DNA from: Candidatus Marinarcus aquaticus
GTDB taxonomy: Bacteria > Campylobacterota > Campylobacteria > Campylobacterales > Arcobacteraceae
NCBI RefSeq assembly: GCF_004116335.1
Contig: NZ_PDKN01000006.1
Coordinates: forward strand, 62,001 to 126,000
Reading direction: 5' to 3'
DNA length: 64,000 bases
A model generated the notes under the pieces. It worked only from the letters and a program-made list of their open reading frames with translations, had not been told where the DNA came from and ran no database searches. This document shows positions 33,327-48,804 of this stretch, piece after piece. The position numbers and the translations under genes are program-made. Every line of letters starts with the position of its first letter. The stretch's first letter is position 1.

Positions 33327-33656
33327 TTGGAAAATTTTTTACTACTGACAATCATTGGTATCTTAGCGCTTTATTTCTTTTCAGGTATGAGTGTTTATAA
33401 AAGCTTATATAAGAAATTGCAAGAAGAGAAGATGATTTTAGAGCAAGAAATTAAAAAACTTGAAGGGCTTAAAAAAGATTATGAACAAAAAATCAAAGGA
33501 AGTATTTCTGCGTTGGAGTCAAAACATGATAACCTCCAAGTGGCTCGAACAGACTTACAATCATTACGAATAGAGAATTCTGAACTTAAACATAAAGTGG
33601 ATGTTTTAGAGCGACGATGTGATGAGTTGTATGCACAAATTCATACCATGGTATAA
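33327..33656 (+). CDS. Membrane-anchored coiled-coil protein
   Basis: Not recognised. 109 residues: an N-terminal membrane helix (about 4-22, LLLTIIGILALYFFSGM) and then an uninterrupted coiled coil (about 28-105). Start TTG behind aaaggtg. It lies between a hook gene and an exported TPR protein gene inside the flagellar locus. The shape recalls small septal or motor-associated coiled-coil proteins, but no family can be named. FliJ is unlikely because FliJ has no membrane helix. Confidence 0.72.
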   Translation: MENFLLLTIIGILALYFFSGMSVYKSLYKKLQEEKMILEQEIKKLEGLKKDYEQKIKGSISALESKHDNLQVARTDLQSLRIENSELKHKVDVLERRCDELYAQIHTMV

Positions 33657-33668
33657 TTAAACGGTTGT

Positions 33669-35666
33669 ATGATGAAAATAATTGGCTTATTACTGGTTTT
33701 ATCAGTATCTATCTTTGCACGTGTCAATGATACCATTGAAGCACTTCCTAATGTCCTTTTCACCTATGATAAACTTAAAAAAGAGCAAACCATTACCACC
33801 TTGCAAGTTGACTTTAATAAAGCCGTGGCTCATCTTGAAAAAGAGCAGTATGAAGAGGCCATTAAAATCTTTAAACAAACTGCTGGAATTTTGCGAATCC
33901 CATCCTTTTTAAATATAGGAATTGCTTACTACAAGCTCAATGATTATCACAATGCACAGGTCTATTTAAAGCAGATTTATAATGTTCAAGAGAGCATTTA
34001 TACACACACATATGCCTATATGAGTGCGGCATTTTATCTGTACAAAATCAATAATGAACAAAAATATTTAGAATCGATTACGCAAATAGCAAAAAAGAAA
34101 AAAAATCTCTCTGAGACCTCAAAACGTATGCTTGCAGATACGTTTATTCTTTTAAAAGAGTATGAAAAAGCCTTGAAAGTATTGGACTCGTTGCAGATTT
34201 CTTATGATTTAAAAAAGGCCCTTTTAAATATTAAACTTAAAGATTATAAAAAAGCAGAGGCTTTATTGGAACGAGCCTATAAAGATGAACTTGATGAAAA
34301 GAGAATAGATCAAATATTGTGGTTTATGATTTACAGAGATTTAAAAGATAATAATTTGACCAAATTGCAAGATCATTTGACCATTTTAGATGAACGAAAA
34401 CTGCGTTTTTTTGTCAATCAAGAGATGCCTCTTAAAATTGCATTTAATGAATATAAATATCTTAACAGTGAATACATGAAGTTCGTCACAGACTACTCTT
34501 TAAATCGTCAAGCGGACATGGTATTTTACTTTGCACCCTTTATTTTTTCTGATAATGAAGAGATTATTTATGACTCTTCGAAAGGGTTTATTTTTAACTC
34601 TAAACAGAATTTAGAGAGCCTTGAAAATATGGTACGTTATAATGCTAAATTTATCAATATTATTAAAGAAGATCCTATTGTACGAGTTCAAAAACTTAAA
34701 CATCTTATTCATAACCGTGACCAAAAATCCTATGTTTATTATAACTTAGCATTATCATATGCTCAAATACATGATTTTGTGAATGCCCATAAATTTTTTA
34801 CCAAAGCATATAAACTCAATCCAGGGAATAAGCTTTATGCAGTGATGACCTTAATCAGTGCACAACGTATTAATACAGTGGTAAAAGACAAAGAGTATAT
34901 TGTCAACTCGATTAACTCAAATCGAGGTTTATATAACTATTTTGGAAAGGAGTTGTATCGACTCTTTATTAATCCAAAGTTTAAAGTAAAAGATCATGCT
35001 GGAACCTACAAAAAGACTATTTTATATAACGCCATACACCTTTTAAGCAAACTGCATGACAAAAAGCCTATTAGTGAACATGAGCCTCTTTTTGTACTCA
35101 ATGCAAAAGATCCTTTGGTCTACTTAATGAGATTGGTCATTCGTAAAGAGGGTGAAAATAAGTATGCGTATATCTCTCGACTGCAAGATACGATTCCTTT
35201 AAATATTAACAATAATTTTTTAGATGGTTCTTTGATTATTACGGAATTTTATGTCGATATCTTAAAAGGATTGGCCCTGTTTGGAAAAGCCAGTTTTACC
35301 ATAGATAATTACTACTCTCCTTCATATTTGCGTACAAAAAGTATTGGCCTCATTCATGATGACAATGCTCAAGCAGCCATCAGTGTATTGGAATATTTGC
35401 AAAAGAAATATGAACTTCAAGATCGATTTACACTCTACTTAATCGTTGCAGCCTATTTGCAAAAAGGGGATTATGAAAATGCCTCTTTACAGCTGTCATA
35501 TATTAAAGCATTATTAAATGACACAGGTGCGAATTTTTTAAGTGGGGTACAACTCATACAAGAGTTGAAACTCAGCAGTGCAAAACAGATGTTTAATCAC
35601 CCCTATTATGATACTCTCATAGATTTTGATATTGAAGGACTCGACCGGTTCTTGGAGGGCTTATAA
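33669..35666 (+). CDS. Exported TPR-repeat protein (flagellar locus)
   Basis: 665 residues with a signal peptide at about 1-18 (MMKIIGLLLVLSVSIFARV), then helical repeats in TPR style: AVAHLEKEQYEEAIKIFKQ near 51, and AYYKLNDYHNAQVYLKQI near 87, and YNLALSYAQIHDFVNAHKFF near 358. No membrane helix after the signal, so it is periplasmic. In Campylobacter the TPR proteins PflA and PflB build a periplasmic scaffold for stators; similar location, export and repeat type make this a candidate analogue, not a proven homologue. The ATG pair at 33669/33672 has only a weak ribosome site. Confidence 0.8.
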   Translation: MMKIIGLLLVLSVSIFARVNDTIEALPNVLFTYDKLKKEQTITTLQVDFNKAVAHLEKEQYEEAIKIFKQTAGILRIPSFLNIGIAYYKLNDYHNAQVYLKQIYNVQESIYTHTYAYMSAAFYLYKINNEQKYLESITQIAKKKKNLSETSKRMLADTFILLKEYEKALKVLDSLQISYDLKKALLNIKLKDYKKAEALLERAYKDELDEKRIDQILWFMIYRDLKDNNLTKLQDHLTILDERKLRFFVNQEMPLKIAFNEYKYLNSEYMKFVTDYSLNRQADMVFYFAPFIFSDNEEIIYDSSKGFIFNSKQNLESLENMVRYNAKFINIIKEDPIVRVQKLKHLIHNRDQKSYVYYNLALSYAQIHDFVNAHKFFTKAYKLNPGNKLYAVMTLISAQRINTVVKDKEYIVNSINSNRGLYNYFGKELYRLFINPKFKVKDHAGTYKKTILYNAIHLLSKLHDKKPISEHEPLFVLNAKDPLVYLMRLVIRKEGENKYAYISRLQDTIPLNINNNFLDGSLIITEFYVDILKGLALFGKASFTIDNYYSPSYLRTKSIGLIHDDNAQAAISVLEYLQKKYELQDRFTLYLIVAAYLQKGDYENASLQLSYIKALLNDTGANFLSGVQLIQELKLSSAKQMFNHPYYDTLIDFDIEGLDRFLEGL

Positions 35667-35710
35667 ATCGAACTAAATTGAAACTTTTATGAAATTTAAA
35701 TTTTTTTTGG

Positions 35711-35716
35711 TATAAT
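35711..35716 (+). promoter_or_regulatory. -10 box for flaG
   Basis: TATAAT directly behind a T-run (ttttttttggtataat), 34 bases before the flaG ATG, which has the strong ribosome site aaggagg. Confidence 0.7.
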
Positions 35717-35749
35717 TAATGAAAGAATGTTTATGCCAAGGAGGCTATC

Positions 35750-36061
35750 ATGGAATTAGGTAGAATTGCAGAAATTGATCAATCTAAGGTTAATACCATT
35801 GAGAAAACACAAAAAGTTCGAGAGACGGATAATAATCAAAAAATTGATCCGAATGAGCAACACAAAAACACAAAAGCAAATGAAATTGTAACCGATACCA
35901 ATGAAGTTATCATCGATAATGTTCAGTTTGGATACAATAAAAGTTCACAAGACTTTTTTGTAAAAGTAACAAGAGGAAATGCAGAGTATAAGTACCCTAC
36001 AGAGGATATGATGAAAATTAAAGCACAACTTCTTGAAGCGATGAAAGCGGAACAAGAGTAA
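35750..36061 (+). CDS. flaG: FlaG family protein
   Basis: 103 residues. A polar, Asn/Thr/Gln-rich first half and a C-terminal beta part, VQFGYNKSSQDFFVKVTRGN, followed by YPTEDMMKIKAQLLEAM, which matches the FlaG plan (a strand pair, then I-P-P/T-E-x-x-x-K helix). FlaG proteins influence flagellar filament length in other bacteria. Here it precedes the switch and stator genes instead of fliD or flagellin genes. Its strong ribosome site suggests abundant synthesis. Confidence 0.72.
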   Translation: MELGRIAEIDQSKVNTIEKTQKVRETDNNQKIDPNEQHKNTKANEIVTDTNEVIIDNVQFGYNKSSQDFFVKVTRGNAEYKYPTEDMMKIKAQLLEAMKAEQE

Positions 36062-36086
36062 CAAATTAAAATAAAAGGTTTCATTT

Positions 36087-37001
36087 TTGCCATCTGATAT
36101 ATCAAATATTATTAAAGAAGAGTTATCAAACACTCTGGAACAATTATTGTCTAAAAAAACTTCAGTCAGTGGAACATCAAAACTTGAATCAAATGAATTT
36201 GAAGGTTCTCAGGCGATTGAAGCCAATGTAAAGTTTGAGTTTAAAAATCTTACCACCAATTGGATTTTTTATATACCTACCATAACAGCAACTAAGTTTG
36301 AGTACTTTATGCTCGGTGGTATGGGTGAATTAAAAGAACACATCGATGATGAAGTTGCAGATGCAGTCAATGAGATTGTATCGAATATTTGTGGAAGCAT
36401 CAGTACCTCAGTAAATGCACAAGGATATGAAGATTTAGGAAGTGTAAAATTTGAATCAGGTGGAAGCGAAATTGTCAATACGGATAAATTTGCCCAAATA
36501 AAAAATCTTTATAAAATCAGTGTGACCATGGATGAAGACGATATTCCAGTGGTCATTGCATTTGATGATATTATTTTACCATATGTCTATGAAATCAGTG
36601 GCGTTGCACCTTCACAAGCTTCACCTCAAGCAACTGTCAGTGGTACCGTTGCGCCTGCAATGTCTTCTTCAAGCAATCCTTCTATGAATGATGATGCTGC
36701 AGGTCTTCTGTCTCTTTTAGGGGAAGACTCTATTACCAACTTAAAACTTCTGTTTGATATTAAATTGAAACTGAGTGTTCGATTGGGAAGTAAAAATTTT
36801 CTGCTCAAAGATATTTTAAGGTGGGATATTGGAGAGATCATTGAACTTGAACAGATGGTGAATGAGCCTTTGGAGATTTTAGTTAATGGGATTAAAATTG
36901 GTGAAGGTGAAGCTGTTATTGTTGAAGGTAAATTCGGTCTGAAAGTAAAAAACATTGGAAGTGAACAATCACGACTTACTTCAATGGGATTAGGTAGCTA
37001 A
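36087..37001 (+). CDS. fliY: Flagellar motor switch protein FliY
   Basis: 304-aa C-ring protein: an N-terminal CheC/FliM-like half (about 1-175) and a C-terminal SpoA domain (about 228-295, with LRWDIGEIIELEQMVNEPLE and VNGIKIGEGEAVIVEGKFGL). The CheC active-site block is DAVNEIVSNICGS near 94: aligned to the D-x-x-x-E-x-x-N pattern, the Asn position is Ser and Asn is one place later, so phosphatase activity may be weak or absent. Start is TTG behind aaaagg. motA follows in 3 bases. FliM was considered, but the Pro/Ser linker and SpoA layout fit FliY. Confidence 0.87.
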   Translation: MPSDISNIIKEELSNTLEQLLSKKTSVSGTSKLESNEFEGSQAIEANVKFEFKNLTTNWIFYIPTITATKFEYFMLGGMGELKEHIDDEVADAVNEIVSNICGSISTSVNAQGYEDLGSVKFESGGSEIVNTDKFAQIKNLYKISVTMDEDDIPVVIAFDDIILPYVYEISGVAPSQASPQATVSGTVAPAMSSSSNPSMNDDAAGLLSLLGEDSITNLKLLFDIKLKLSVRLGSKNFLLKDILRWDIGEIIELEQMVNEPLEILVNGIKIGEGEAVIVEGKFGLKVKNIGSEQSRLTSMGLGS

Positions 37002-37004
37002 GTC

Positions 37005-37760
37005 ATGGATAAAGGTACGGTTCTAGGACTCGCAGCTGGTTGGGGATTTGTTTGCTTTGCTATTTTATTAGGTGGGGTTGGATTTGGTCCTTATATAGAT
37101 ATTCCCTCTGTTTTAATTGTATTGGGAGGAACGATTTCCGTTACCAGTGGTCAATTTGAAGGAAATGAGTTAAAACGAATTGGACCAGCTCTTAAAGTTG
37201 CAATGAATAAAGTATCTGTAGAAGAGCAACCAGAGTTGATTGAAAAAATCATCTTTTATGCAACAGAGATTAAGAAACATGGTGTGATGCACGTTGAACA
37301 AAAAGTTTTAGAAGAACCTAATCCCTTCTTTAGAGAAGCATTTCAATTGCTTGTAGATGGAATTAAACCTGAAGTATTGGTGCCTTTACTTGAAACCAAA
37401 CTGGAGTTTATGGCTAAACGACATGAACGTATGCTGAAACTCTTTACCAATGTTGGCGGTACGGCAGGTTCAATGGGGATGATTGGTACCTTAATTGGTC
37501 TGGTTGCGATGCTTGCAAACTTATCAGACCCAGCTTCGGTTGGTCCCGCCATGGCAGTTGCATTAATTACGACGCTGTATGGTGCTTTAATAGGTACACT
37601 TTTTGCGGGGATTATTGAAAGTAAACTCAATGAAAAAAACAGTGTTGAGATTACTTCATGTGAGATTATCATTGTAGGAACTTCAATGATAGCAGCTGAA
37701 GAGTCCATTGGTAATATTAAAATGAGATTGAACGCCATCTTAGTTGATGGGATAGAGTAA
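37005..37760 (+). CDS. motA: Flagellar stator protein MotA/PomA
   Basis: Inner-membrane ion-channel subunit with four membrane helices (about 7-25, 34-50, 150-172, 183-205). The short 251-aa form and the helix sequence NVGGTAGSMGMIGTLIGLVAML followed by GPAMAVALITTLYGAL are of the PomA-type branch. The cytoplasmic loop between helices 2 and 3 (about 60-148) contains charged residues that face FliG. The coupling ion (H+ or Na+) cannot be decided from sequence alone. It lies between fliY and motB. Confidence 0.95.
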   Translation: MDKGTVLGLAAGWGFVCFAILLGGVGFGPYIDIPSVLIVLGGTISVTSGQFEGNELKRIGPALKVAMNKVSVEEQPELIEKIIFYATEIKKHGVMHVEQKVLEEPNPFFREAFQLLVDGIKPEVLVPLLETKLEFMAKRHERMLKLFTNVGGTAGSMGMIGTLIGLVAMLANLSDPASVGPAMAVALITTLYGALIGTLFAGIIESKLNEKNSVEITSCEIIIVGTSMIAAEESIGNIKMRLNAILVDGIE

Positions 37761-37768
37761 GTTTTATT

Positions 37769-38539
37769 ATGGCTGATAAAAAATGTCCAGAATGTCCAAA
37801 GTGTTTACCCGGATGGTTGGTCCAGTTTGGTGACTTAATGTCACTGCTTTTGACATTTTTTATTCTTCTGCTTTCGATGTCGATTATGGACACCAAGAAG
37901 GTGGAAGAGTATTTTACAATTATGAAAAAAGCGATGGGGTTTTTAGCGGATAATGATACGGTGGTTGATCATTCAGAAAAACACTCTGATAGTCCCATTG
38001 CTGTTGAAAATCGTGATATTCCTGAATCCAGTGATAATCAAGAGATTATTGAAGAGGTTGAGGAGATTATTCGAGTTGCCAATGACGCTTCCGAACAGTT
38101 TGAAACGGTACAACTCATACAAGGGAAAAATGAGTTTGTCTTGGATATTCCCTCAACACTGATGTTTGAAGAGGGTGAATATAATGTGAGTAAACCTGAA
38201 GCCAAAGCCTTTATACAAAAAATTGCACGAGTAGTACGCACCATGCCCAATATTTATAACATTGAAATCATGGGGCACACCGCACGAAACATCTACGTCA
38301 GTGATACGATACCTCGTGACAATTGGGATTTATCAGCACTTCGAGCGGTTTCTGTGGTCAAAGAGTTGATTAAAAACCGAATAGACCCAGCTTCGCTAAA
38401 AGTCTCTGCGTTTGCATCGTATAAACCAAAAAGCGATAACCCAGTAGAGAATAGACGTGTAGAGATGCGTTTCTATGCACAACAAAGCAATGACAATATA
38501 TTAGAAGAGGAAAACTTCTTCGATAGGATTGAACAATGA
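37769..38539 (+). CDS. motB: Flagellar stator protein MotB/PomB
   Basis: Peptidoglycan-anchored stator subunit. The critical ion-binding Asp is Asp22 in LVQFGDLMSLLLTFFILLL; the single membrane helix is about 20-40, with the plug region next to it. The OmpA-like peptidoglycan-binding domain is at about 120-245 (NIEIMGHTARN, LSALRAVSVVKEL, NRRVEMRF). The cytosolic N-terminus holds three closely spaced Cys (Cys6, Cys9, Cys12: CPECPKC). 256 aa. It overlaps flgJ by ATGA. Confidence 0.95.
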   Translation: MADKKCPECPKCLPGWLVQFGDLMSLLLTFFILLLSMSIMDTKKVEEYFTIMKKAMGFLADNDTVVDHSEKHSDSPIAVENRDIPESSDNQEIIEEVEEIIRVANDASEQFETVQLIQGKNEFVLDIPSTLMFEEGEYNVSKPEAKAFIQKIARVVRTMPNIYNIEIMGHTARNIYVSDTIPRDNWDLSALRAVSVVKELIKNRIDPASLKVSAFASYKPKSDNPVENRRVEMRFYAQQSNDNILEEENFFDRIEQ

Positions 38540-38829
38540 ACATAGATAATACTTTTGTGAATGCAACAAAACTTCAAGGAAATGATCTAAAAAGTTTAAA
38601 TGTGCACAATGCCCAAGATGCGAGTTTAAAAAAAGTATGTGATGATTTTGAATCGTTTTTTACTCAACAACTGTTGGATATATCTTTAAAATCAAGTAAT
38701 ATTGCAGGTGAGGGTACGGGTTCTGAAATTATTAAAGGGATGTATACTGAAGCCATTTCAAAAGGTTCTTCTGGAACGTTTGGTATCAGTGATATGCTCT
38801 ATAACTTCTTAAGTGAGAATAACAAATGA
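38536..38829 (+). CDS. flgJ: FlgJ-like rod-binding protein
   Basis: 97 residues matching only the N-terminal rod-binding domain of FlgJ: KKVCDDFESFFTQQLLDISL followed by GSEIIKGMYTEAISK and GTFGISDMLYNFL, in place of the usual F-E-x-x-F-x-x-x-x-L-x-x-M and A-x-x-G-x-G-I-x-x-x-L. The muramidase domain of gamma-proteobacterial FlgJ is missing, as usual outside that group, so another enzyme must open the wall for the rod. Overlaps motB and the next gene by ATGA. Confidence 0.85.
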   Translation: MNIDNTFVNATKLQGNDLKSLNVHNAQDASLKKVCDDFESFFTQQLLDISLKSSNIAGEGTGSEIIKGMYTEAISKGSSGTFGISDMLYNFLSENNK

Positions 38830-39203
38830 TAGAACAAACAATAGAAAAAATGGTTACATTGATTGAAGTGTTAAAACAGGCGATAAAAGATGACATTGAA
38901 GATATAAAATTGGCCAATCATGAAAAACTTTTAGAGAGAAATGAGGTCAAACAACAATACATGGAAGAGATTGTTGAACTTAAAAGTGATCTCAATCAAC
39001 AACTTGTAAGTGCAATGAAAAGTGGTGTGGATGTGAATATTTACAGAGACCAAGTCAATGACTTAGAGAATCAACTCAAAGAGTTGTATGCCCTTAATGG
39101 AAAACTCGCTTCCATTGTATTGCCTGTTAAACAGATGTATAAAGAGATTGTGGATGAACTTTCAGCACAAACAGGGGGGAATGTCTTTGAAATTAAAGCT
39201 TAG
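38826..39203 (+). CDS. flgN: FlgN-like flagellar export chaperone
   Basis: 125 residues, all helical and coiled, with no membrane segment. The N-terminal half contains ALLxxE-like heptads (LLERNEVKQQYMEEIVEL near 37), the character of FlgN, the chaperone for hook-filament junction proteins FlgK and FlgL. Position after flgJ agrees with flgJ-flgN neighbours in other Campylobacterota. The family call is by shape and place, since FlgN is poorly conserved. Confidence 0.65.
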   Translation: MIEQTIEKMVTLIEVLKQAIKDDIEDIKLANHEKLLERNEVKQQYMEEIVELKSDLNQQLVSAMKSGVDVNIYRDQVNDLENQLKELYALNGKLASIVLPVKQMYKEIVDELSAQTGGNVFEIKA

Positions 39204-39585
39204 TTTCTGTATGGTTGCGCTTTTGAGTATCAATGCATGGGCATTTGATCTTTTAATTGCAAAAAATAACATGGACTATAAAGCAAAAGTTTCTTTACAA
39301 GATTTGCAAGTAAAAAAGGTTGCAACGGCTTATAATCGCTGTGTCCCTTTGAGTTTAGAAAAGCTAAATAAAAATACCTATGTGACCACACACTATGTCA
39401 TTAAAGGAAGCGTTATTTGTACCAAAGACGTTGAAATCTATAAACGTGAATCGGTGGTGTTTGATTTTGGTGGTTTACAAATTGAACAAGAGGGAAAATT
39501 GATTTATGAAAATGACAAATACATACGAATAAAAAAGAATGACGGACAGATTGAAAAAATATATAAAGATGGAAGACTAAAATGA
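39181..39585 (+). CDS. Exported short FlgA/SAF-like protein
   Basis: About 134 residues with a signal peptide (KLKLSFCMVALLSINAWAF). The mature part has HYVIKGSVICTKDVEIYKRE and FGGLQIEQEGKLIYENDKY, then IRIKKNDGQIEKIYKDGRL. This follows the order of the FlgA SAF domain (R-x-I-x-x-G-x-x-I/L-x-x-x-D-V, then a G-L-x-I strand, then I-x-V-x-N-x-x-S/D-G-x-x-x-x-G-x-V). FlgA is the periplasmic P-ring chaperone; this version would be minimal. Start ATG at 39181 or TTG at 39187; the ggggga before them fits the TTG a little better. It overlaps flgN and flhF. Confidence 0.55.
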   Translation: MSLKLKLSFCMVALLSINAWAFDLLIAKNNMDYKAKVSLQDLQVKKVATAYNRCVPLSLEKLNKNTYVTTHYVIKGSVICTKDVEIYKRESVVFDFGGLQIEQEGKLIYENDKYIRIKKNDGQIEKIYKDGRLK

Positions 39586-40724
39586 ATATGCTCTCTTTTC
39601 TAGGAGAAACTCCCACGATTGCTTTGCAAAACGCTCAAAAAGAGTGTGGAGAAGATGCGATTGTTATCTCAACGAAAAAAATATCGGATGCGTCTGATTC
39701 AAACAGTAATATGTATGAAGTAATCGTTGCGATTGAAGGAGAGAAACAACAACCCTTTAAACGAAAAATTGTAGCCAAAGACCCTAAAAAAGATACGCAA
39801 TTTAAGGCACAATTTTATGACTTTAAAGAAGAGATTCTTAAGATGCAAGATGCCATTGCACAGGTTCAAAAAACCATTTGGGATCCTAAAAGTCAGCTTT
39901 ATGATTTAACCATACCTCCAGAATTTGTTGATATTTATTCCCTATTTGAGCAAAATGAGTTTGACCAAGAGATGACCTATACCATTATGAAAAAAACTAT
40001 CAAGCAACTTCCTGTTGCAATGAAGTCAAACCCTAAAAAAATCAATGATTTCTTTAAACTGATTTTACGACGAATCATTCCTATTAAAAAAGAGGAACCG
40101 TTAAGAAGGCATCAGAGAAAAATCGTGATGATGGTAGGTCCAACGGGTGTAGGAAAAACAACAACCATCGCAAAACTGGCAGCTCGATATGCGTATAAAA
40201 TGAGTGCCAATTATAAAGTTGGAATTGTCACACTTGACTCCTTTAGAGTGGGGGCCATTGAACAACTTCAAGCGTATACCAATATCATGCGATTGCCTTT
40301 AGAAGTGGTGAAGAAACCAGAAGATTTAATTGAAGCGTTGTTGCGATTAAAAGATTGTAACTACATTTTTATTGATACAGCTGGAAGCAGTCAGTATGAT
40401 GTGGATAAAATTGAACTCATCAATGAGTATCAAATAAAAGTCGATGAACTGCCTATAGAGAAGACTTTAGTGTTGCCAGCGAATGTAAAACAGACCGATT
40501 TACAAGAGATTTATAACAACTATTCTCGTTTGGGTATTAATTATTTAACGTTTACGAAATTGGACGAAACACGAAGTTTTGGAAACCTGATCTCTTTTTC
40601 TCACAAAACAAAGAAATCGATCACTTATTTCTCTGTGGGACAGAATGTTCCAGATGACTTAATTGTCTCAGATGCTATGTTTTTAATTGACTGTTTTATG
40701 AACCGAAATTGTCCTAGGAGATAG
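39582..40724 (+). CDS. flhF: Flagellar biosynthesis GTPase FlhF
   Basis: SRP-type GTPase that sets flagellar pole and start of assembly. The N-terminal part (about 1-90) has the FlhF opening ALQNAQKECGEDAIVISTKK. The GTPase domain has P-loop VGPTGVGKTTTIAKLA near 185, TLDSFRVGAIEQLQAY near 218, DTAGSSQYD near 267 and TKLDET near 330. 380 aa. It overlaps the previous gene by ATGA and flhG starts 3 bases later; flhF-flhG pairing is standard for polar flagellates. Confidence 0.95.
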   Translation: MNMLSFLGETPTIALQNAQKECGEDAIVISTKKISDASDSNSNMYEVIVAIEGEKQQPFKRKIVAKDPKKDTQFKAQFYDFKEEILKMQDAIAQVQKTIWDPKSQLYDLTIPPEFVDIYSLFEQNEFDQEMTYTIMKKTIKQLPVAMKSNPKKINDFFKLILRRIIPIKKEEPLRRHQRKIVMMVGPTGVGKTTTIAKLAARYAYKMSANYKVGIVTLDSFRVGAIEQLQAYTNIMRLPLEVVKKPEDLIEALLRLKDCNYIFIDTAGSSQYDVDKIELINEYQIKVDELPIEKTLVLPANVKQTDLQEIYNNYSRLGINYLTFTKLDETRSFGNLISFSHKTKKSITYFSVGQNVPDDLIVSDAMFLIDCFMNRNCPRR

Positions 40725-40727
40725 TGC

Positions 40728-41558
40728 GTGTTTGATGCTATTTCGACACAAGCGCATAAGCTTGTCTCCATGACAAAAGAGGGCGTACAATATGGTTCTT
40801 CTAAAAGTAAACTGCTGACCATTACCTCTGGAAAAGGTGGGGTTGGAAAATCCACTTTCACTGCTAATATTGCCTATTTGCTCTCTAAAAGAGGGTATAA
40901 AGTTGCCGTTATTGATGCGGATATTGGATTGGCAAATATGCAAGTTTTGTTTAATGTACGTCCTGTACATACAATTTTTGATTATATTGAGGCCAAAGCT
41001 GAACTTAGTGATGTCATCATGCAAACGCCATACTACAATGTTTATTTGCTTGCAGGCAAAAGCGGCTACAGTTATGCGAATCACTCTAATTCTTTTGTAC
41101 TGACTCGAGTAGTAAGCGATGTGGTTGCTTTAAATGAATTTGATTATGTTTTGATTGACACGGGTGCTGGTTTGAATGATTATGTCAAAGAATTCTTAAA
41201 AATTTCAGACAATATTTTGGCTTTAACCACAACAGATCCAAGTGCACTTACAGATGTCTATGCTTTAATGAAAATGCTGTCCAAAGATAAAAATTCGCTT
41301 ATGTTATGCTTTAATCACACAAAAACGGCCAAAATTGGATTTTCAATTGCAAAATCTTTGGAGAATTTGGCCAAAAAAAATAGGCTAAATACCAATTTTA
41401 TGTTAGAATATATAGGTAATGTATCGTCATCTAGTACAATTTCTACGACAGGAAGATTGAGAAAACTCTTTGCATATGAGTTTGAAAATGAGACTGTAAC
41501 AACAGAATTGGAAATGGTGATTGATGAAGTATTAAAAAAAATGAATGGTGGATTGTAA
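40728..41558 (+). CDS. flhG: MinD-like ATPase FlhG (YlxH)
   Basis: Controls flagellar number together with FlhF. The deviant Walker A ITSGKGGVGKSTFTANIAYL is at about residues 29-48, followed by DADIGLANMQVLF near 63 and DTGAGLNDYVKEFLKISD near 145. The C-terminal amphipathic membrane-binding helix is plausible (last 20 residues). 276 aa. Starts at GTG. In C. jejuni FlhG also influences cell division site choice; the same is possible here. Confidence 0.94.
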   Translation: MFDAISTQAHKLVSMTKEGVQYGSSKSKLLTITSGKGGVGKSTFTANIAYLLSKRGYKVAVIDADIGLANMQVLFNVRPVHTIFDYIEAKAELSDVIMQTPYYNVYLLAGKSGYSYANHSNSFVLTRVVSDVVALNEFDYVLIDTGAGLNDYVKEFLKISDNILALTTTDPSALTDVYALMKMLSKDKNSLMLCFNHTKTAKIGFSIAKSLENLAKKNRLNTNFMLEYIGNVSSSSTISTTGRLRKLFAYEFENETVTTELEMVIDEVLKKMNGGL

Positions 41559-41616
41559 AAGTGAACAAACAAATCAATTCAATTGCTTATGATACTTTTT
41601 GTCAAAAAGGGTTAAC

Positions 41617-41925
41617 TTGGTAATTGAGAAGTTTTCACAAAATATTATTAACAGTGGCATACTAAGACTCTATATTGCGACGGGTTTTTTTGGTTCATTG
41701 ATTTTTTTTGTGATAAATGCTGATTTGTTTACCCCCATTGAAATGATGTTTGGTATTGTAGCAGTTACGGTTGTGTTAAAAGGCATAGCAAATATTATGT
41801 TGGCATTGCTGGTTGGTTTATTCAGTTTGGATAATAAACGCGATGAGTTAGAGTTTAAACACAATACCGACAAAATTGATTCACTTTTAGCCGATTTAAC
41901 GATTCAAGAATCATCGGCAAACTAG
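41617..41925 (+). CDS. Small two-helix membrane protein
   Basis: Not recognised. About 102 residues with two membrane helices (ATGFFGSLIFFVINADLF and IVAVTVVLKGIANIMLALLV) and a charged C-terminal tail. Start uncertain: TTG at 41617 has aaaaaggg at proper distance; TTG at 41599 would add six residues. It sits between flhG and fliE in the flagellar locus. FlhG genes are often followed by the sigma28 gene fliA and fliM; neither is here. A role in motor or stator assembly is pure position-based inference. Confidence 0.65.
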   Translation: MVIEKFSQNIINSGILRLYIATGFFGSLIFFVINADLFTPIEMMFGIVAVTVVLKGIANIMLALLVGLFSLDNKRDELEFKHNTDKIDSLLADLTIQESSAN

Positions 41926-41939
41926 TCAAAGGAGCTTAA

Positions 41940-42239
41940 ATGAATATCACCGACGTATCAAACAGTTTAAACTTAGGTAATAACGTCCAAAAACAAAACA
42001 CCTCAGGAAAAGTTGCAGGTGATTCTTTTGAAAATATTTTAAAAAATGCAATTTCGGATGTGAACCAATCACAAGTTCAAGCATATGATGCCATGGAAGG
42101 CATTGCCACAGGTAAGGTGAAAAACTTACAAGAGGCTGTTCAGAAAATTGAAGAAGCAGAATTGAGTTTGAGACTCTCTTTAGAGGTAAAGAATAAAGCA
42201 ATCAGTGCCTATAAAGAAGTGATGAGAATTCAGGTTTAA
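41940..42239 (+). CDS. fliE: Flagellar hook-basal body protein FliE
   Basis: Links the MS ring to the rod. 99 residues with DSFENILKNAISDVNQSQVQ and AVQKIEEAELSLRLSLEVKN and the terminal KAISAYKEVMRIQV, which is the FliE signature (A-Y-x-E-I-M-x-M-x-V). aaaggag before the ATG. Directly upstream of flgC, a common pair. Confidence 0.95.
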   Translation: MNITDVSNSLNLGNNVQKQNTSGKVAGDSFENILKNAISDVNQSQVQAYDAMEGIATGKVKNLQEAVQKIEEAELSLRLSLEVKNKAISAYKEVMRIQV

Positions 42240-42248
42240 TAAGGATTT

Positions 42249-42713
42249 ATGATGAGTTTTTTTGATGGTTATGATGTAGCAGCTTCAGGAATGAATGCTC
42301 AACGAACAAGAGTCAATGTGGTCAGTTCAAACATTGCCAATGCACAAACAACACACACTGCAGAAGGTGGACCTTATCAAAAGAAAAATGTAATCTTTGA
42401 AGAAATTTTACTCAATCAAGATGATAAAGCAAAAGAGAATAAAATTGCAGTATTGCCGGATCAAAATCAAAAAACACCATTAAGAGGTGTAGGAATCAGA
42501 GAAGTTGTAGATTCTAAAAATGAACCGGTTATGAAATATGAACCCAATCACCCTGATGCCAATGAAGAAGGGTATGTCGCTTATCCAAATATCAATCCTG
42601 TGATTGAAATGGTTGATTTACTTGAAGCAACACGTTCGTATGAAGCGAATGTTTCTGCTTTTACAACACATAAAAAAATGGATACGCAAACATTGGATAT
42701 TTTAAAGGCGTAG
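42249..42713 (+). CDS. flgC: Flagellar rod protein FlgC
   Basis: Proximal rod subunit of 154 aa with SGMNAQRTRVNVVSSNIANA near 14 and the C-terminal GYVAYPNINPVIEMVDLLEATRSYEAN, which is diagnostic for FlgC. ATG at 42249 or 42252. FlgB is far upstream, so the flgB-flgC pair is split in this genome. fliK follows after 3 bases. Confidence 0.96.
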   Translation: MMSFFDGYDVAASGMNAQRTRVNVVSSNIANAQTTHTAEGGPYQKKNVIFEEILLNQDDKAKENKIAVLPDQNQKTPLRGVGIREVVDSKNEPVMKYEPNHPDANEEGYVAYPNINPVIEMVDLLEATRSYEANVSAFTTHKKMDTQTLDILKA

Positions 42714-42716
42714 ATC

Positions 42717-44936
42717 ATGACTAAAGAGATGAGTTTTTTAAACATCGCTCCCCAAGAGTCTAAAAATGACTCTGCATCTAAAAGCAATACTTTTAAAAGT
42801 GAAGCTAAAACGGCACCATCTCTGTTTGATACCATGCTAAATGATGCACAAAAAGAGGTGACAACAACACCTGCTCAAACGAAGAGTGCTGAATCAAAAA
42901 CAACATTGCAAGAAGAACCAAAAGAGCAAAGCAACACTGCATTGGATAAAAAAGTAGAAACTTCTACGAATGATACTAAAAAAGTAGACAGTGAAGTTTC
43001 TACAACGCCCAAAACAGATAATAAAGCAAAGCCATCTGAAACGACTGAAATAAAAACAAATGATAAAGATTTAGAGAATTCTAAAAAAGATACAAAAAAT
43101 TCTACTGTACAAAACAAACAACTTTCCCTACTTGATAGATTGATGATGGATGCACAACAAAGCATTGATAATGAAAATAATCAAACAGGCGAAGTCGAAA
43201 CTTCAAAAGGTACAGCTATAGCAAAGAGTATCAAAGATGTGGTACAAGATGCGAAACAAGTGGATGTTTTAGAAAACAGTAAAAATTCTGATGGGGTTAA
43301 AGAGAGTGTAGAGGGTAAAAAAGAGCTTATTGATGCTTTAAAAACAGCTGAGACCACGGCTTCTTCACAAGCAACAACAGACGTAAGTGAAGAAACCAAC
43401 ACTGAAACAAAAAAAGCAGAAGTGAATACTTCAACCAAACAAGTTGAAATTTTAAAAGAGGGCTCTTTATTAGATAAATTGGTTGAGCAAGCCAATAAAA
43501 CCATTTCACAAGAGCAAAACAGTAAAAATGTAGCATCAAAGATTGACACTGTTCTTCCAACAAAACCAGATGTTAAGGCAGAAACAGCCGTAATACCATC
43601 AACAAAAGTGGCCACACAAGCTGAAAATGTCAGTGCTGCACAAACAACAAACAAACCTGAAAATATAAATGCAAAAGTGGTACCTGAGGTTGTTCAAGTC
43701 AACGGTGGTGATGAAAGTGTTGAAGCTGTTCTTGATGAGGTTAAAAATAAGGCGACTCAATCCTCACAAAAAGGTGCAGAACAAGTTGTAACAACTACAA
43801 AAACAACCACTGTAAATCAAGAAACTGAAGTAAAAACTCTTCTTTCTCAAAATACAGATGCACAAACTCAAAATATAAAGAATGAAAAAGTAGCGCAAGA
43901 GTTGGCCAAACTGAATAGTGCAGAAGAACCCGTAAAAGTAGCTGTGATTAAAGATGATGCTAAAGTCGTAGAAGCAAAAGCTGAAAATAAATCCTTGTTG
44001 GACAGATTGATTGACCAAACCAAACAAAATATTCAAAAAACACAAGAGAATACACAACAAACACACAATAACAGTGTTAACAAAGAGGCTACACCAAAAG
44101 GTTCATCTGACTCGCTCATTAATAATATCTATTTGACCTCGCAACAAAGTGCCTTAAACAAAGCTTCACTTGAGAATGCTTATAATGCAAAAAAAGTGCT
44201 CACAGAGGGAACATCGGTTAAAGATGTTCAAAAGAGTGCACAAATGTTGGATTTAGGTTTAGAAGATGCGCAACTAATCAAAGAGCAAGAGTTGAAAAAC
44301 ACGCTTAAAGAGGAGTTTATTTCTAAACTTAATTTCTCAAAAGATGTATTAAAATATGATTTACAAAAAATCAATGAAGTCATCTCTCAAAGTGCAAAGA
44401 CAACCTCTTTGAATAATATCAATATTGCACAAGATGTAGAGATAAACCTCTCTTCAACGGCAGTGTATAATATTCAAAACAGAATTGTGGGTGCACAACA
44501 GCAAATGAATACCATGATGTCTGATGTTGCAAGAAACATGTACTTAAACTATAAGCCTCCTGTAACTGCATTTAGAATGAACTTGAACCCTGCACATTTA
44601 GGAAACATTGCTGTTTTAATTAAAAATGAGAAAGAGAATGGCTTAAGTATCAGCTTGAATATGTCCAACCAAAATACTTTGGATTCATTTGTGGATAATC
44701 AAGCAGCATTAAGAGCGGCATTGGCTCGAAATTTTAACACCGATTCCAATATCAATTTGAGTTTCAATATGCAAGAAGGTGGCTCTGAACAACAAGCCAG
44801 TTCAAGTAACAGTAACAATGCTCAACAAGACCAACAAAATTCGAAAGGGCAACGTCATACCACATCGGACGTATTAGACAGTCTCAATCACAAAGCACAA
44901 GCTGAGGCAGATGCGGAACCTGTTAACTATATGTAA
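42717..44936 (+). CDS. fliK: Flagellar hook-length control protein FliK
   Basis: Secreted ruler and substrate-switch protein. 739 aa, far longer than E. coli FliK (375). The first about 570 residues are low-complexity and rich in Lys, Thr, Glu, Ser and Gln. The conserved Flg_hook domain is at about 615-690 (PPVTAFRMNLNPAHLGNIAV and later NFNTDSNINLSFNM). Four copies of a short motif of the form S-L-L/F-D-x-x-x-x-x-A/T are spread through the long part near residues 35, 137, 250 and 426. Length fits a long hook, as expected for the large FlgE. Last base overlaps fliR. Confidence 0.9.
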   Translation: MTKEMSFLNIAPQESKNDSASKSNTFKSEAKTAPSLFDTMLNDAQKEVTTTPAQTKSAESKTTLQEEPKEQSNTALDKKVETSTNDTKKVDSEVSTTPKTDNKAKPSETTEIKTNDKDLENSKKDTKNSTVQNKQLSLLDRLMMDAQQSIDNENNQTGEVETSKGTAIAKSIKDVVQDAKQVDVLENSKNSDGVKESVEGKKELIDALKTAETTASSQATTDVSEETNTETKKAEVNTSTKQVEILKEGSLLDKLVEQANKTISQEQNSKNVASKIDTVLPTKPDVKAETAVIPSTKVATQAENVSAAQTTNKPENINAKVVPEVVQVNGGDESVEAVLDEVKNKATQSSQKGAEQVVTTTKTTTVNQETEVKTLLSQNTDAQTQNIKNEKVAQELAKLNSAEEPVKVAVIKDDAKVVEAKAENKSLLDRLIDQTKQNIQKTQENTQQTHNNSVNKEATPKGSSDSLINNIYLTSQQSALNKASLENAYNAKKVLTEGTSVKDVQKSAQMLDLGLEDAQLIKEQELKNTLKEEFISKLNFSKDVLKYDLQKINEVISQSAKTTSLNNINIAQDVEINLSSTAVYNIQNRIVGAQQQMNTMMSDVARNMYLNYKPPVTAFRMNLNPAHLGNIAVLIKNEKENGLSISLNMSNQNTLDSFVDNQAALRAALARNFNTDSNINLSFNMQEGGSEQQASSSNSNNAQQDQQNSKGQRHTTSDVLDSLNHKAQAEADAEPVNYM

Positions 44937-45685
44937 TGGAAAGTTTAATTGCACTTCTGGATGAAAATTTTGTATTTCCTTTTTTACTTCTATTAGGAAG
45001 AGTACTGGCATTTGTTGCTTTTATGCCAGTCTTTTCTCACACCGCAGTTTCTCCAACAATTCGTGTGGCATTGGCTTTTTATTTTACAGTGTTTATTTAC
45101 CCTTTTATTGACGTTCAAAACACCATCACACAAGATATGTTTGTTGAAGCACTTATCAGTGAGATCACGTTAGGTTTAATTGCCTCGTTTTTACTCAATA
45201 TAATCTTCGCCGCAGTGCGTATTATTGGTGACTTTGTAGGGTATGCAACGGCACTTTCAATGGCCAATATGTTTGATCCAAGCACGGGAGCTAATGAAGG
45301 GATTGTGAGTCGATTTTTGTATGTCATTGCCATTTTAATTTTCTTTGAAACAGGGATGTACGAGGTGACCATTTTGATGCTCTCAAAAAGTTTCAGTATG
45401 GTGCAGTTAGGAACATTTAATCTCTTCTCATATGATGGTATTCAAATTGCTATATCAGAGATTAATCGCATGTTTGCTTTTGCATTCTCTTTTGCATTTC
45501 CACTCTTCTTTATTGGTTTTATTATGGATGTTTATTATGGTTATGGCACCAAATCAATGCCGGCATTCTCTCCTTTTGTTATCACATTTCAATTGAAATT
45601 TTTATTGATATTTTTATTTATGATGTTTGGCTTTGATATCTTTGCAGAGAATTTTAAAGAGTACTTTATTGCTAAATTTAGTTGA
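44936..45685 (+). CDS. fliR: Flagellar export gate protein FliR
   Basis: Inner-membrane component of the flagellar type III gate. 249 aa with about six hydrophobic segments beginning FPFLLLLGRVLAFVAFMPVF, and the conserved FVGYATALSMANMFDPSTGA near 101-120. Overlaps fliK (TAATG) and is followed by flhB behind a separate promoter. fliP and fliQ, often next to fliR, are not in the window. Confidence 0.94.
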   Translation: MESLIALLDENFVFPFLLLLGRVLAFVAFMPVFSHTAVSPTIRVALAFYFTVFIYPFIDVQNTITQDMFVEALISEITLGLIASFLLNIIFAAVRIIGDFVGYATALSMANMFDPSTGANEGIVSRFLYVIAILIFFETGMYEVTILMLSKSFSMVQLGTFNLFSYDGIQIAISEINRMFAFAFSFAFPLFFIGFIMDVYYGYGTKSMPAFSPFVITFQLKFLLIFLFMMFGFDIFAENFKEYFIAKFS

Positions 45686-45703
45686 TTTTTTACAAAATTT
45701 GCC

Positions 45704-45709
45704 TATAAT
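45704..45709 (+). promoter_or_regulatory. -10 box for flhB
   Basis: TATAAT in gcctataata, 39 bases before the flhB ATG, after a T-rich stretch. Confidence 0.55.
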
Positions 45710-45747
45710 ATAACTTATTACTAAAACAGAGTTTTATAGGTACATAC

Positions 45748-46797
45748 ATGGCTGATAACGACGACGAAAAAACAGAAGAACCCACCCCAAAGAAGATTGA
45801 AGATGCGAAAAAAGAAGGTAACGTCTCTAAATCAATGGAAGTTGTAGGGGCTTCGACTTTGTTTTTTGGTTCGGTCTATTTGCTTTTTTTCTCCTCTTTT
45901 TCAATGCTTGAAATTCAAAAAATGATGCGTTTTGTTTATAGTTTTATTGGTCAAGAGATGGACAGTACGGTCTGGTATGCTATTACACACACGATTGTGC
46001 GAACAGCTTTGTATGCCTTGATGCCTATTTTTGCACTGGTGGTGATATTGACATTTGTATTTAACTGGGTGCAATTTGGCATGATTATGATTCCCATAAA
46101 ATTCAAACTGGAAAAATTAGATCCCATCTCTGGAATGAAGAATGTATTCTCAGCTAAAAAAGGATTAGAGGCTTTAAAACTGACCTTTAAACTTTTGATC
46201 ATATTTGCAGTGATGGTCATACTTTTTTTACTTACAGGGGACACTTTCTTGGCCATGATGGATAAAGAAGTCAGTGCTTCTTTAGATGCAATGATTACAT
46301 TGAGCATGTATTTCCTCTCTACCATCCTTTTAATTATTATAATTTTCGCTATAATAGACTTTTATTTTACACGGTTTTACTATTTAAAATCATTGCGCAT
46401 GAGTAAACAAGATATTAAAGATGAATTTAAAAATATGGACGGGGATCCTCAGGTAAAAGCACGAATTCGAAGAATTCAAATGCAAATGTCAGCAAAAAGA
46501 ATGATGGCCAATGTTCCTGATGCCGATGTTGTTATTACTAACCCAACACACTATGCGGTTGCTTTAAAATATGATTCTAAAACAACATCCGCACCGGTGG
46601 TGGTTGCAAAAGGGATTGATTTTATTGCCAGCCGTATTAAAGAGATTGCCAGAGAAAATAGCGTACCAATTATTGAGAACCCTTCATTGGCAAGAGCATT
46701 GCATGATCAAATTGAGGTGGATCAACAAATTCCAGAAGAGTTTTATAAAGCCATTGCAGAAATTTTCTCATATGTGTATGAACTAAAAAAGAAATAA
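45748..46797 (+). CDS. flhB: Flagellar export switch protein FlhB
   Basis: Inner-membrane export apparatus protein that switches from hook to filament substrates after self-cleavage. The opening DEKTEEPTPKKIEDAKKEGNV is typical, four membrane helices lie at about 30-210, and the autocleavage site NPTH is at about residues 265-268 (VVITNPTHYAVAL). 349 aa is standard. Gene order fliK-fliR-flhB puts ruler and switch side by side. Confidence 0.97.
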   Translation: MADNDDEKTEEPTPKKIEDAKKEGNVSKSMEVVGASTLFFGSVYLLFFSSFSMLEIQKMMRFVYSFIGQEMDSTVWYAITHTIVRTALYALMPIFALVVILTFVFNWVQFGMIMIPIKFKLEKLDPISGMKNVFSAKKGLEALKLTFKLLIIFAVMVILFLLTGDTFLAMMDKEVSASLDAMITLSMYFLSTILLIIIIFAIIDFYFTRFYYLKSLRMSKQDIKDEFKNMDGDPQVKARIRRIQMQMSAKRMMANVPDADVVITNPTHYAVALKYDSKTTSAPVVVAKGIDFIASRIKEIARENSVPIIENPSLARALHDQIEVDQQIPEEFYKAIAEIFSYVYELKKK

Positions 46798-46806
46798 AGG
46801 GCAGTA

Positions 46807-48804
46807 TTGAAGAGTTTATTGATTTTTTTATCACTTTTTTTTGTTGCACAAGCACAAAAAGATTTTTATTACAGTTATATTGATTCAAGCGGTGCACAAA
46901 TTAAGTCTCAAGAAAAACAGGAGATGAAAGATGGTTATGCCACGTTGGAAAATATTAAAAAAATTGCGCGTGATGATAACTTAGAAGAGGCGTATAAAAG
47001 ACTTCTAAGTTTTAAAGGACGAAATAATTTAACACTTTTAAATTCTGATATCATTCTTTTAGAATCTGAATTTTTACTTAAAAAACGACTTAAAAGTTTT
47101 GCTGTTAAAGGGGCAAAATATTTAGAAGATTCTATTAACAGTTCTGCCATTGCTGAAGAGGATTTGCCCCGAGCTTATATGTTGCTAGTGGAGTTAAAAC
47201 TTGCAGCTAATAAACCCGATGATGCTCGATACTTTGTGGATGTGATTATCAATAACTTTGATACACCCATTATTAATGCTTATGGAAAAATCTATTTAGC
47301 TAAACTCTATGAGTATAAAAAAGAGTATAAAAAAGCCATTAAAGTATTGTATGAAGTCTTAACAAAAACAACCAATATTGATGTAGCAACAGTAGTTGCA
47401 GATGAGTTGTTTGATGTCTATATTTTAGATGATCAAAAACCTGAAGCCTATAAATTGGCCAAACAAGTTTTGAATAAAAATATGGATTATTATGCGAATG
47501 ACAGTTTTTTGGCCATTACTAAAGTCAAAAAGCTTATTAAAAGTGATATGCCCGAGTTTGCAGCTCAAATTTTAGAGGCGTTGTTGGAACGAACGAAAAA
47601 CTTAGAATCAATTGAAACATTTAAATTTGAATTGGCTGAAACCTATATGTTGATGTATGATGGTACTATGAAGTATCTGAATAAAGCAAAAGAGCTTTAC
47701 AAAGATGTGCTTAATGATTATCCCGATGGACGTTATACGCAACAAGCTAAAATGATTATTGATGAAATATTGATGCGTGAAGGTAAAATTGAACCAGCAG
47801 TGTTAAACTCAAAATATTATGAGTCCGCTTCAATGCAACAAAAAGTGTTGATGCAAGAGATTGTGAATGCAATGAAAAAAGAGCAGTATGAGCTGATTTT
47901 ACGTTCACAAAAAGTGTATAAAAAGATTTCTGATACCATTTTTAATCGATTCGGATATAAAAATTTAGAAGATGTATTGGATAAGGTTCGAGTTTTATTG
48001 ATCAAACAATATCTCATTGAAAATAAGTGTAATGATTTAAATGCAGCTTTGAATAAGACCAGAAAAGAGACGATGGTCAAACTCATTGAAGATGATTTTT
48101 TAAAGTATAAGTTCTTTGAATGTTTATTGGAGTACCCAAATGAAAAAGGGTACAATATGGCTAAAGAGGGGTTGTTTAATTCACGTGACGCTCAAGTATA
48201 TACCTATTTAGAACGGGTGGCTTATAAACTTGGAGATTATGAAGAGGCACTTGACTTCTCTCAAAAAGTTGAAATGCTCAACGATCAAGAAGCATCACAA
48301 AAAGAGTTTTTATACCGTTTTCAAGTATTAAATGCACTTCAAAATCCACTTCGAATGAGACGTTTTTTTAATTATGCATTTCAAAATCCCTTATTGATTG
48401 AAAATAACCAAGATAATCCATTGATTTTGGATTTTTATTATCAATACTATTTTTATCTGCTTGATATGAATGAAACGGCACAAGCCAATACCATACTCAA
48501 TGAACTCTATGAAAAACAAAAAGAGTATAAAGCATTTATCTACTCTCCTTCAATTGAAATAGAGTTGGCCAAAAGAGCCAAAGAGAATCAAAACTATCTA
48601 AAAGCCATTGCGTATTTACAAGAGAGTATTACTAATACACGACGAATAAAAAACAATGAATTGGCACAAGTCTATTATGAGATGATCAAATTGTATGAAT
48701 TGACCAATAATCAAACAAAAAAAGATGAAGTACTGCAACAATGTAAAGCATTGGACCCAGCAACGACAACCAGTTTATATAAAAAAATGTGTGATGAGAT
48801 GTGA
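46807..48804 (+). CDS. Second exported TPR-like protein (flagellar locus)
   Basis: 665 residues. Signal peptide MKSLLIFLSLFFVAQAQ with likely cleavage after AQA, then helical hairpin repeats in TPR style, for example AYGKIYLAKLYEYKKEYKKA near 158, NKAKELYKDVLNDYPDGRYT near 292 and AYKLGDYEEALDFSQKVEML near 473. No membrane helix after the signal, so it is predicted periplasmic. Start TTG behind aaaggg. It lies between flhB and fliI, overlapping fliI slightly. PflA of Campylobacter is also an exported repeat protein, so this is a possible functional relative; no direct identity can be shown. Confidence 0.8.
   Translation: MKSLLIFLSLFFVAQAQKDFYYSYIDSSGAQIKSQEKQEMKDGYATLENIKKIARDDNLEEAYKRLLSFKGRNNLTLLNSDIILLESEFLLKKRLKSFAVKGAKYLEDSINSSAIAEEDLPRAYMLLVELKLAANKPDDARYFVDVIINNFDTPIINAYGKIYLAKLYEYKKEYKKAIKVLYEVLTKTTNIDVATVVADELFDVYILDDQKPEAYKLAKQVLNKNMDYYANDSFLAITKVKKLIKSDMPEFAAQILEALLERTKNLESIETFKFELAETYMLMYDGTMKYLNKAKELYKDVLNDYPDGRYTQQAKMIIDEILMREGKIEPAVLNSKYYESASMQQKVLMQEIVNAMKKEQYELILRSQKVYKKISDTIFNRFGYKNLEDVLDKVRVLLIKQYLIENKCNDLNAALNKTRKETMVKLIEDDFLKYKFFECLLEYPNEKGYNMAKEGLFNSRDAQVYTYLERVAYKLGDYEEALDFSQKVEMLNDQEASQKEFLYRFQVLNALQNPLRMRRFFNYAFQNPLLIENNQDNPLILDFYYQYYFYLLDMNETAQANTILNELYEKQKEYKAFIYSPSIEIELAKRAKENQNYLKAIAYLQESITNTRRIKNNELAQVYYEMIKLYELTNNQTKKDEVLQQCKALDPATTTSLYKKMCDEM

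Follow-up and report, generated by a model that had tools for sequence, protein, structure and literature searches.

The flagellar locus in the window, the 64,000-nucleotide stretch of Candidatus Marinarcus aquaticus DNA analysed here, poses the question of what two exported proteins of exactly the same length contribute to the motor. In the Campylobacter flagellar motor, PflB forms the rim and PflA the spoke, and both hold the torque units. The initial annotation had offered the pair either as Arcobacter-type counterparts of PflA and PflB or as new periplasmic motor parts; it was silent on which protein is which and on the N-terminal reduction of both. The presence of PflA and PflB in Arcobacter motors is already published (PMC5758724).

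Both open reading frames were confirmed at 665 aa, and their neighbours place them in the flagellar gene string as follows.

33669..35666, plus strand: pflB, short form (rim protein), an exported TPR superhelix of 665 aa, assigned by phmmer, profile, hhalign, Foldseek and VIA-align
36087..37001, plus strand: fliY (C-ring), in the same gene string downstream of pflB; NF006272 E 1.7e-46, below cut-off
45748..46797, plus strand: flhB, directly upstream of pflA; TIGR00328 above cut-off
46807..48804, plus strand: pflA, short form (spoke protein), an exported TPR superhelix of 665 aa with a TTG start codon, assigned by hhalign, Foldseek and profile
48801..50114, plus strand: fliI, sharing 4 bases with the 3' end of pflA; NF006290 above cut-off

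Reading frames, hydrophobicity scan and neighbours thus agree with the initial annotation, which had put two exported 665-residue proteins in a flagellar locus, one between flhB and fliI and the other between hook and switch genes (FliY lies downstream; the hook protein was named by eye). MotA, MotB and the hook protein (31322-33268) were named by eye only. Export and membrane calls come from a Kyte-Doolittle scan with 19-residue windows, and signal peptides were judged from hydrophobicity. Both proteins have a short N-terminal hydrophobic core. No later membrane helix had been expected, and past residue 40 the maxima stay below membrane-helix level, at 1.51 among 29 PflB-like rows and 1.57 among 23 PflA-like rows. 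TPR-like repeats had also been claimed: Pfam TPR models match the 33669 protein with E 3e-13 and the 46807 protein weakly, below cut-off, and AlphaFold predicts a helical superhelix for each (mean pLDDT of 87.1 and 89.6, respectively).

Counting the window's own genome, the 33669 gene is present in 44 and the 46807 gene in 40 of 60 genomes. The order pflB then pflA holds in 20 of 20 stretches, which were chosen because the two genes lie close together. The equal length might suggest two copies of one 665-residue protein, but hhalign between the two groups gives a probability of 0.3%, and lengths differ among aligned relatives (661-676 in the PflB group and 663-674 in the PflA group, with hand-picked start codons). 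A duplication is therefore extremely improbable, and the equal length is, judged from the alignments, a coincidence.

The 33669 protein is readily recognised. phmmer retrieves C. jejuni PflB (9leq_B, E 1.7e-10; 9hmf_L, E 2.8e-10), the family profile matches with E 8.4e-24, and hhalign pairs short with long PflB at 99.8%. The best solved Foldseek matches of its model are C. jejuni PflB chains (TM 0.62-0.63), and VIA-align superposes it on C. jejuni PflB with Z 27.5 across 578 residues. C. jejuni PflB has a beta1/beta2 strand pair (PMC11870540), and two strands of the predicted model would fit that pair.

34431..34445, plus strand: PflB strand taken as beta1, residues 255-259, a strand in the predicted model
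35619..35633, plus strand: PflB strand taken as beta2, residues 651-655 near the C terminus, a strand in the predicted model

By model and structure matches, the protein thus shares with C. jejuni PflB (9leq_B, 9hmf_L) a TPR core, equivalent to residues 178-820 of the latter, with strands at the beta1 and beta2 places.

The evidence for the 46807 protein as PflA comes from profile comparison and predicted fold. hhalign of short against long PflA gives 100% (E 2.1e-39), with residues 21-663 aligned to 158-783, so that the TPR core is homologous along its length. Foldseek ranks C. jejuni PflA first (9hmf_K, E 8.8e-14), with a long-PflA TM-score of just 0.40; a profile built from short forms alone reaches 9hmf_K at only E 7.8e-4. 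Among the 50 rows listed by VIA-align, generic TPR folds came on top and C. jejuni PflA was absent. Like C. jejuni PflA (9hmf_K; 9leq_A for the N-terminal part), the protein is an exported TPR superhelix, aligned over its full length and encoded by a flagellar gene; it has an export signal and no later membrane helix by the hydrophobicity scan, and A16 is invariant in 23 rows.

TPR proteins resemble each other, and plain phmmer of the 46807 protein returned only designed TPR proteins, besides weak hits that look like chance, and no PflA, which could mean that these are two unrelated new periplasmic parts, PflA/PflB-like by their repeats only. This is contradicted by the full-length alignment, the fold matches and the reciprocal specificity of the profiles (pairing each short protein with the wrong long partner gave 5.6% and 50.5%), as well as by joint occurrence: in a 200-genome census of the class, PflA and PflB are each found in 179 genomes, and the 20 listed as missing PflA are the same 20 listed as missing PflB. 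We regard that reading as very improbable, and the proposal of new motor parts falls with it. The structure comparison with PflA and PflB called for by the initial annotation found related folds, with C. jejuni PflB and PflA the best Foldseek matches, so the refuting outcome of unrelated predicted folds did not arise. Profiles and folds together bear out the Arcobacter-type counterparts. The identity of the two proteins as PflB and PflA is well supported, the fold being part of what is observed; that they also act as rim and spoke in Arcobacteraceae is likely, given homology and the published tomograms.

Both proteins are N-terminally reduced throughout the family. In the other families sampled, PflA consists of a signal peptide, an AMIN beta-sandwich, a PflB-wrapping linker and then the TPR spoke. 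Among 89 genomes of the window's family, 80 have a PflA match: 76 full-length short frames of 664-679 aa, four fragments (one without its N-terminal part) and no long form. The 200-genome census agrees, with short PflA in 9/9 genomes of the family (665-668 aa); among the matches listed for other families, which leave 29 further matching genomes outside the listing, 141/141 are 752-853 aa long and start at model position 1-12. An AMIN-plus-linker profile matches 19 of 23 genomes from other families at E 2e-31 or lower. Within the window's family it yields only weak matches, in 8 of 37 genomes (E 4.9e-4 to 0.87). The best two of these eight, read by eye, are a solute-binding-type sensor (in genome G015) and a chemoreceptor of the own genome, speaking against an AMIN domain detached onto another protein. 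The small exported protein at 39181-39585, which Pfam does not name and whose start rather resembles an AMIN domain, was rejected for the same role (hhalign 21.7% over 17 residues, mostly signal peptide).

The 46807 protein thus differs from C. jejuni PflA in having no AMIN beta-sandwich and about the last third alone of the PflB-wrapping linker (C. jejuni 126-163), at 665 versus 788 residues. Because the beta-sandwich is absent, it is, on its alignments, a short-form orthologue by descent and not a PflA of canonical architecture. What is left in front of the core is a short tail.

46855..46905, plus strand: tail at the mature N terminus of the short PflA (residues 17-33), proposed PflB-docking peptide, delimited by conservation, pLDDT, hhalign and MAFFT

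These roughly 17 residues after the signal peptide align with the last third of the C. jejuni linker (hhalign, MAFFT). The tail is conserved, with a mean majority-residue fraction of 0.795 that just 0.8% of same-length windows attain, and is probably disordered, as AlphaFold predicts pLDDT <50 at residues 15-23.

In PflB, the reduction concerns the membrane anchor. In each of the 13 long forms examined, a membrane helix begins somewhere within residues 22-58; in 29 of 29 rows the short form has its N-terminal core alone and no later membrane helix.

33720..33803, plus strand: leader (residues 18-45) of the short PflB, standing where the long form has a cytoplasmic tail, a membrane helix and a linker

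The structural match starts at residue 46, equivalent to C. jejuni 178. The leader has pLDDT <50 at residues 10-32 and average conservation at residues 21-40. In contrast to C. jejuni PflB, the 33669 protein thus lacks both the cytoplasmic tail and the membrane helix, and instead carries a signal-type segment and the short leader (665 vs 820 residues); we file it as a short-form orthologue of PflB by descent. A relaxed PflB groove was considered and rejected: conservation of residues 46-105 (the N-terminal TPRs) relative to the mean shifts only slightly, being 1.09 in short and 1.22 in long PflB.

The short forms most probably arose by loss. They could instead be ancestral, the AMIN domain, the linker and the PflB membrane helix having been gained on the branch to the other families; Chaban et al. 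describe A. butzleri as an early branch and regard its motor as a likely ancestral intermediate (PMC5758724), and Mo et al. also place it peripherally in trees of flagellar proteins (PMC9321776). However, in both the 60- and the 200-genome set every listed match from another family is a long form, and Mo et al. argue in the same paper for a complex motor in the ancestor, parts of which Arcobacter lost. Moreover, MotK, from outside the phylum, also combines AMIN with TPR (PMC13023049). There, MotC and MotK of alphaproteobacteria are described as TPR motor proteins, MotK with and MotC without AMIN, a pair of similar architecture; they belong to another phylum than the window's proteins and are likened to them by description, not sequence. 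An ancestral short form is thus unlikely.

Which parts of the joint does this leave? In C. jejuni, deletion of PflA 16-168 abolishes the PflA-PflB dimer and the rim (PMC12222027). The PflA linker 126-163 wraps the N-terminal TPRs of PflB, and the AMIN domain itself is reported in that preprint to lie outside the PflB contact (PMC11870540), so that the linker loss alone bears on the joint. With its membrane helix lost, the rim would not be tied to the inner membrane by a helix of its own. As parts of both the spoke-rim and the rim-membrane connection are missing, the joint in the window's family probably works differently. In C. jejuni two-hybrid tests, the PflA AMIN beta-sandwich reportedly meets FliL and FcpO.

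We propose that Sec exports both short proteins, that PflA superhelices form spokes radiating from the MS-ring, and that PflB forms the rim setting the wide stator ring. In the family ancestor, PflA would have lost the AMIN beta-sandwich together with roughly two-thirds of its linker, and PflB its cytoplasmic tail and membrane helix. The spoke would then dock on the rim via the 17-residue PflA tail, a tentative step whose chances we put a little below even. The tail has not retained the near-invariant positions at the linker end (P155, G158 and P166 in the long PflA L075), so that binding cannot simply have stayed as it was. It is possible, if short of probable, that the joint was rebuilt, with the PflB leader or a third protein making the contact and the PflA tail binding, for example, FlgY or FliL. 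This would rival the docking step and not the identity of the proteins; both partners have changed N-terminally within one family, and the tail departs from the old linker end at near-invariant positions, but no candidate third protein was found and the PflB leader has no special conservation.

The outcome would be a scaffold that still works, though more loosely, around a minimal joint; this would suit the dynamic behaviour inferred for the stators of A. butzleri. In this species, a density was assigned to PflA and a wider ring to PflB; the ring is seen without stator density, and cells are trapped at higher viscosity (PMC5758724). The reduction was counted across family genomes, among which the imaged strain was not singled out by name. 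Two FliL-family matches are kept, so that a changed hold on the stators is not forced. We consider it rather doubtful that the reduction underlies dynamic stators; the whole reading, the same spoke-rim scaffold with another joint design after both partners lost joining elements, and loosened so that it no longer locks the stators, is equally speculative.

The reduction matters because PflB binding, rim assembly and motility all depend on the N-terminal region of PflA in C. jejuni, and a whole family is without most of it. The ring in one imaged species despite the reduction would show which joint parts are dispensable. The short proteins would offer a minimal spoke-rim pair for biochemistry, with neither membrane helix nor beta-sandwich. 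The reduction would also explain, in a way that can be tested, why A. butzleri shows no stator density and swims less well at high viscosity. If true, placing stators in a wide ring and holding them there are separated in this family by a natural experiment. A literature search, with supplements outside its scope, returned no description of missing N-terminal domains in Arcobacter PflA or PflB in the texts available; the A. butzleri motor paper reports the presence of the proteins, and missing domains are not described in its accessible text (PMC5758724). What is apparently new is thus the extent of the reduction.

As for partner proteins, an Arcobacter-type motor has PflA and PflB with FlgO and no FlgP or FlgQ; in the own genome PflA, PflB and two FlgO-family matches were found, as PflA, PflB and FlgO-family genes are present in A. 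butzleri (Chaban et al. 2018, PMC5758724). Fused FcpMNO and FlgY are reported in Arcobacter (preprint PMC11870540). In the own genome, a PilN search gave no match and an MgtE_N search retrieved an apparent MgtE and FliG only. Directly upstream of pflB lies a conserved neighbour.

33327..33656, plus strand: membrane-anchored coiled-coil protein of 109 aa

It was considered as a split-off anchor of PflB and rejected, as other families have weak full-length homologues of 110-118 aa (6 of 23 genomes), and all six genomes keep a long PflB. Judging from its charges, the coiled coil should be cytoplasmic, and the protein probably lies outside the periplasmic scaffold.

The two equal-length genes that the initial annotation had placed at 33669 and 46807 are both present as open reading frames in the flagellar locus:
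33669-35666, + strand: pflB, short form (665 residues by ORF reading)
46807-48804, + strand: pflA, short form (665 residues by ORF reading)

The initial annotation proposed that their products may be either Arcobacter-type counterparts of PflA and PflB or new periplasmic motor parts, to be checked by HMM search and structure prediction, among other means. Profile comparison bears out the first of these. The 33669 protein directly retrieved C. jejuni PflB (phmmer, E 1.7e-10 and 2.8e-10); with the 46807 protein, phmmer returned no PflA, its matches being either designed TPR proteins or weak and chance-like. The family profile of the 46807 protein paired with long PflA of other families at 100% (E 2.1e-39, over residues 21-663), and the PflB group paired with long PflB at 99.8%. 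The crossed short versus long PflA/PflB comparisons gave 5.6% and 50.5%, and the short PflB group compared with the short PflA group gave 0.3%. The two products are therefore distinct orthologues that share a length by chance.

The predicted folds agree with this assignment. For the short PflB model (pLDDT 87.1), C. jejuni PflB takes the top two Foldseek places (TM 0.62 and 0.63; next row 0.19) and leads VIA-align (Z 27.5, rmsd 6.1, 578 aligned residues; next row Z 13.5), where model residues 46-658 correspond to residues 178-820 of the C. jejuni chain. Strands predicted in this model at residues 255-259 and 651-655 are consistent with the published beta-pair of C. jejuni PflB. For the short PflA model (pLDDT 89.6), Foldseek ranks C. 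jejuni PflA first (E 8.8e-14; the next row has 7.4e-8), at a TM of just 0.40; it is absent from the 50 rows listed by VIA-align.

Both proteins are reduced. Long PflA consists of a signal peptide, an N-terminal beta-sandwich (AMIN), a linker and the TPR spoke. In short PflA, which lacks AMIN, a segment aligned with the linker end follows the signal peptide directly; in our profile alignment it maps approximately to C. jejuni PflA residues 151-164. Long PflB runs from an acidic cytoplasmic tail through a membrane helix and a linker to the TPR core, whereas short PflB has a signal-type segment and a leader of ~25 residues before the core. The direction of change was presumably from long to short. 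Our literature search, which covered mainly open-access article text, found no account of PflA or PflB domain losses.

The short forms follow the family boundary. Among 200 genomes of the class (completeness at least 90%), PflA and PflB were each found in 179, with identical listed misses (20). PflA is short in all nine Arcobacteraceae genomes of this sample, and has 752-853 aa in 141/141 genomes of other families among the matches listed, 29 further PflA-matching genomes of other families lying outside that list. PflB frames measure 669-697 aa in seven listed Arcobacteraceae genomes of nine, and 724-888 aa in 142 of the 143 frames listed for other families, the remaining one (646 aa) having internal stops. 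Within Arcobacteraceae, PflA was matched in 80/89 genomes, as 76 frames of 664-679 aa and four fragments, one of them wholly without the N-terminal part. An AMIN-plus-linker profile reached E 2e-31 or better in 19/23 genomes of other families; of 37 Arcobacteraceae genomes, 29 gave no match and eight a weak one (best E 4.9e-4). The records examined by species name, A. caeni (L120), A. vandammei (L129) and A. vitoriensis (L140), all carry both short forms. One relative's pflA (L039, G030:C8:150004-151995) contains an internal TGA, through either gene disruption or an error in sequencing; the same shortened frame occurs in a second locus, L114, on a contig of equal length.

In 20 genome stretches selected for closeness of pflB and pflA, and thus no census, the order small membrane gene (33327)-pflB-fliY-flhF-flhG-fliR-flhB-pflA is kept in all 20, fliI follows pflA in 19, and motA and motB lie inside the pflB-pflA string in 18.

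In C. jejuni, deletion of PflA residues 16-168 is reported to abolish both PflA-PflB dimerization and rim formation (PMC12222027). According to a preprint (PMC11870540), the PflA linker makes the PflB contact; AMIN deletion leaves cells non-motile, although AMIN does not touch PflB; FliL and FcpO are AMIN partners in two-hybrid tests; and loss of the PflB cytoplasmic part halves motility. Yet in the A. butzleri motor, densities of 16-fold symmetry have been attributed to PflA and PflB, and stator density was absent; this species was trapped at viscosities in which C. jejuni still swims (PMC5758724).

Residues 17-33 of short PflA, hereafter the tail, are among its best conserved stretches: their majority fraction averages 0.795, a level that 0.8% of equal-length windows attain, against 0.50 at residues 1-16 and 0.56 at 34-60. 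Since the tail is conserved yet unfolded alone (pLDDT under 50 at residues 15-23 of the monomer model), it suggests a candidate binding peptide. Our first guess for a partner is PflB, because the tail sits where the last third of the PflB-wrapping linker lies in C. jejuni. Counting against such docking, P155, G158 and P166 (numbering of a relative's PflA, L075), near-invariant in the long linker end, are absent from the tail. We propose that spoke and rim would be arranged in Candidatus Marinarcus aquaticus much as they are in Campylobacter, the joint between them being minimal and the rim lacking a membrane anchor, and that stators would be positioned but not locked.

Several neighbouring genes deserve mention. 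Directly upstream of pflB, 33327-33656 encodes 109 residues that comprise an N-terminal membrane helix and a coiled coil. This protein is strongly conserved (mean column identity 70%, 17 rows), starts with TTG in most relatives, and has weak full-length homologues of 110-118 aa in 6/23 genomes of other families. Directly after flhG, the small product of 41599-41925, with two hydrophobic segments by eye, is a candidate FlgV that matches how PMC11607428 describes the Arcobacter-type (Type-3) form; FlgV was earlier reported absent from Arcobacter by Mo et al. (PMC9321776). Upstream of flhF, 39181-39585 (ORF-list start 39088, 31 codons earlier) encodes a 134-aa exported protein kept across Arcobacteraceae; a Pfam search gave it no convincing name, and by eye it recalls FlgA/SAF proteins. 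Adjoining flgG are two minus-strand genes (20078-21746), both without a Pfam match at E 0.01. The product of one, 412 aa long, combines an acidic N terminus with a membrane helix and a stretch resembling TolA; that of the other is highly charged and 146 aa long. Elsewhere in the same genome, at C7:109316-110291, two FlgO-family matches lie side by side (E 5.4e-38 and 3.6e-22), in line with what is reported for Arcobacter.
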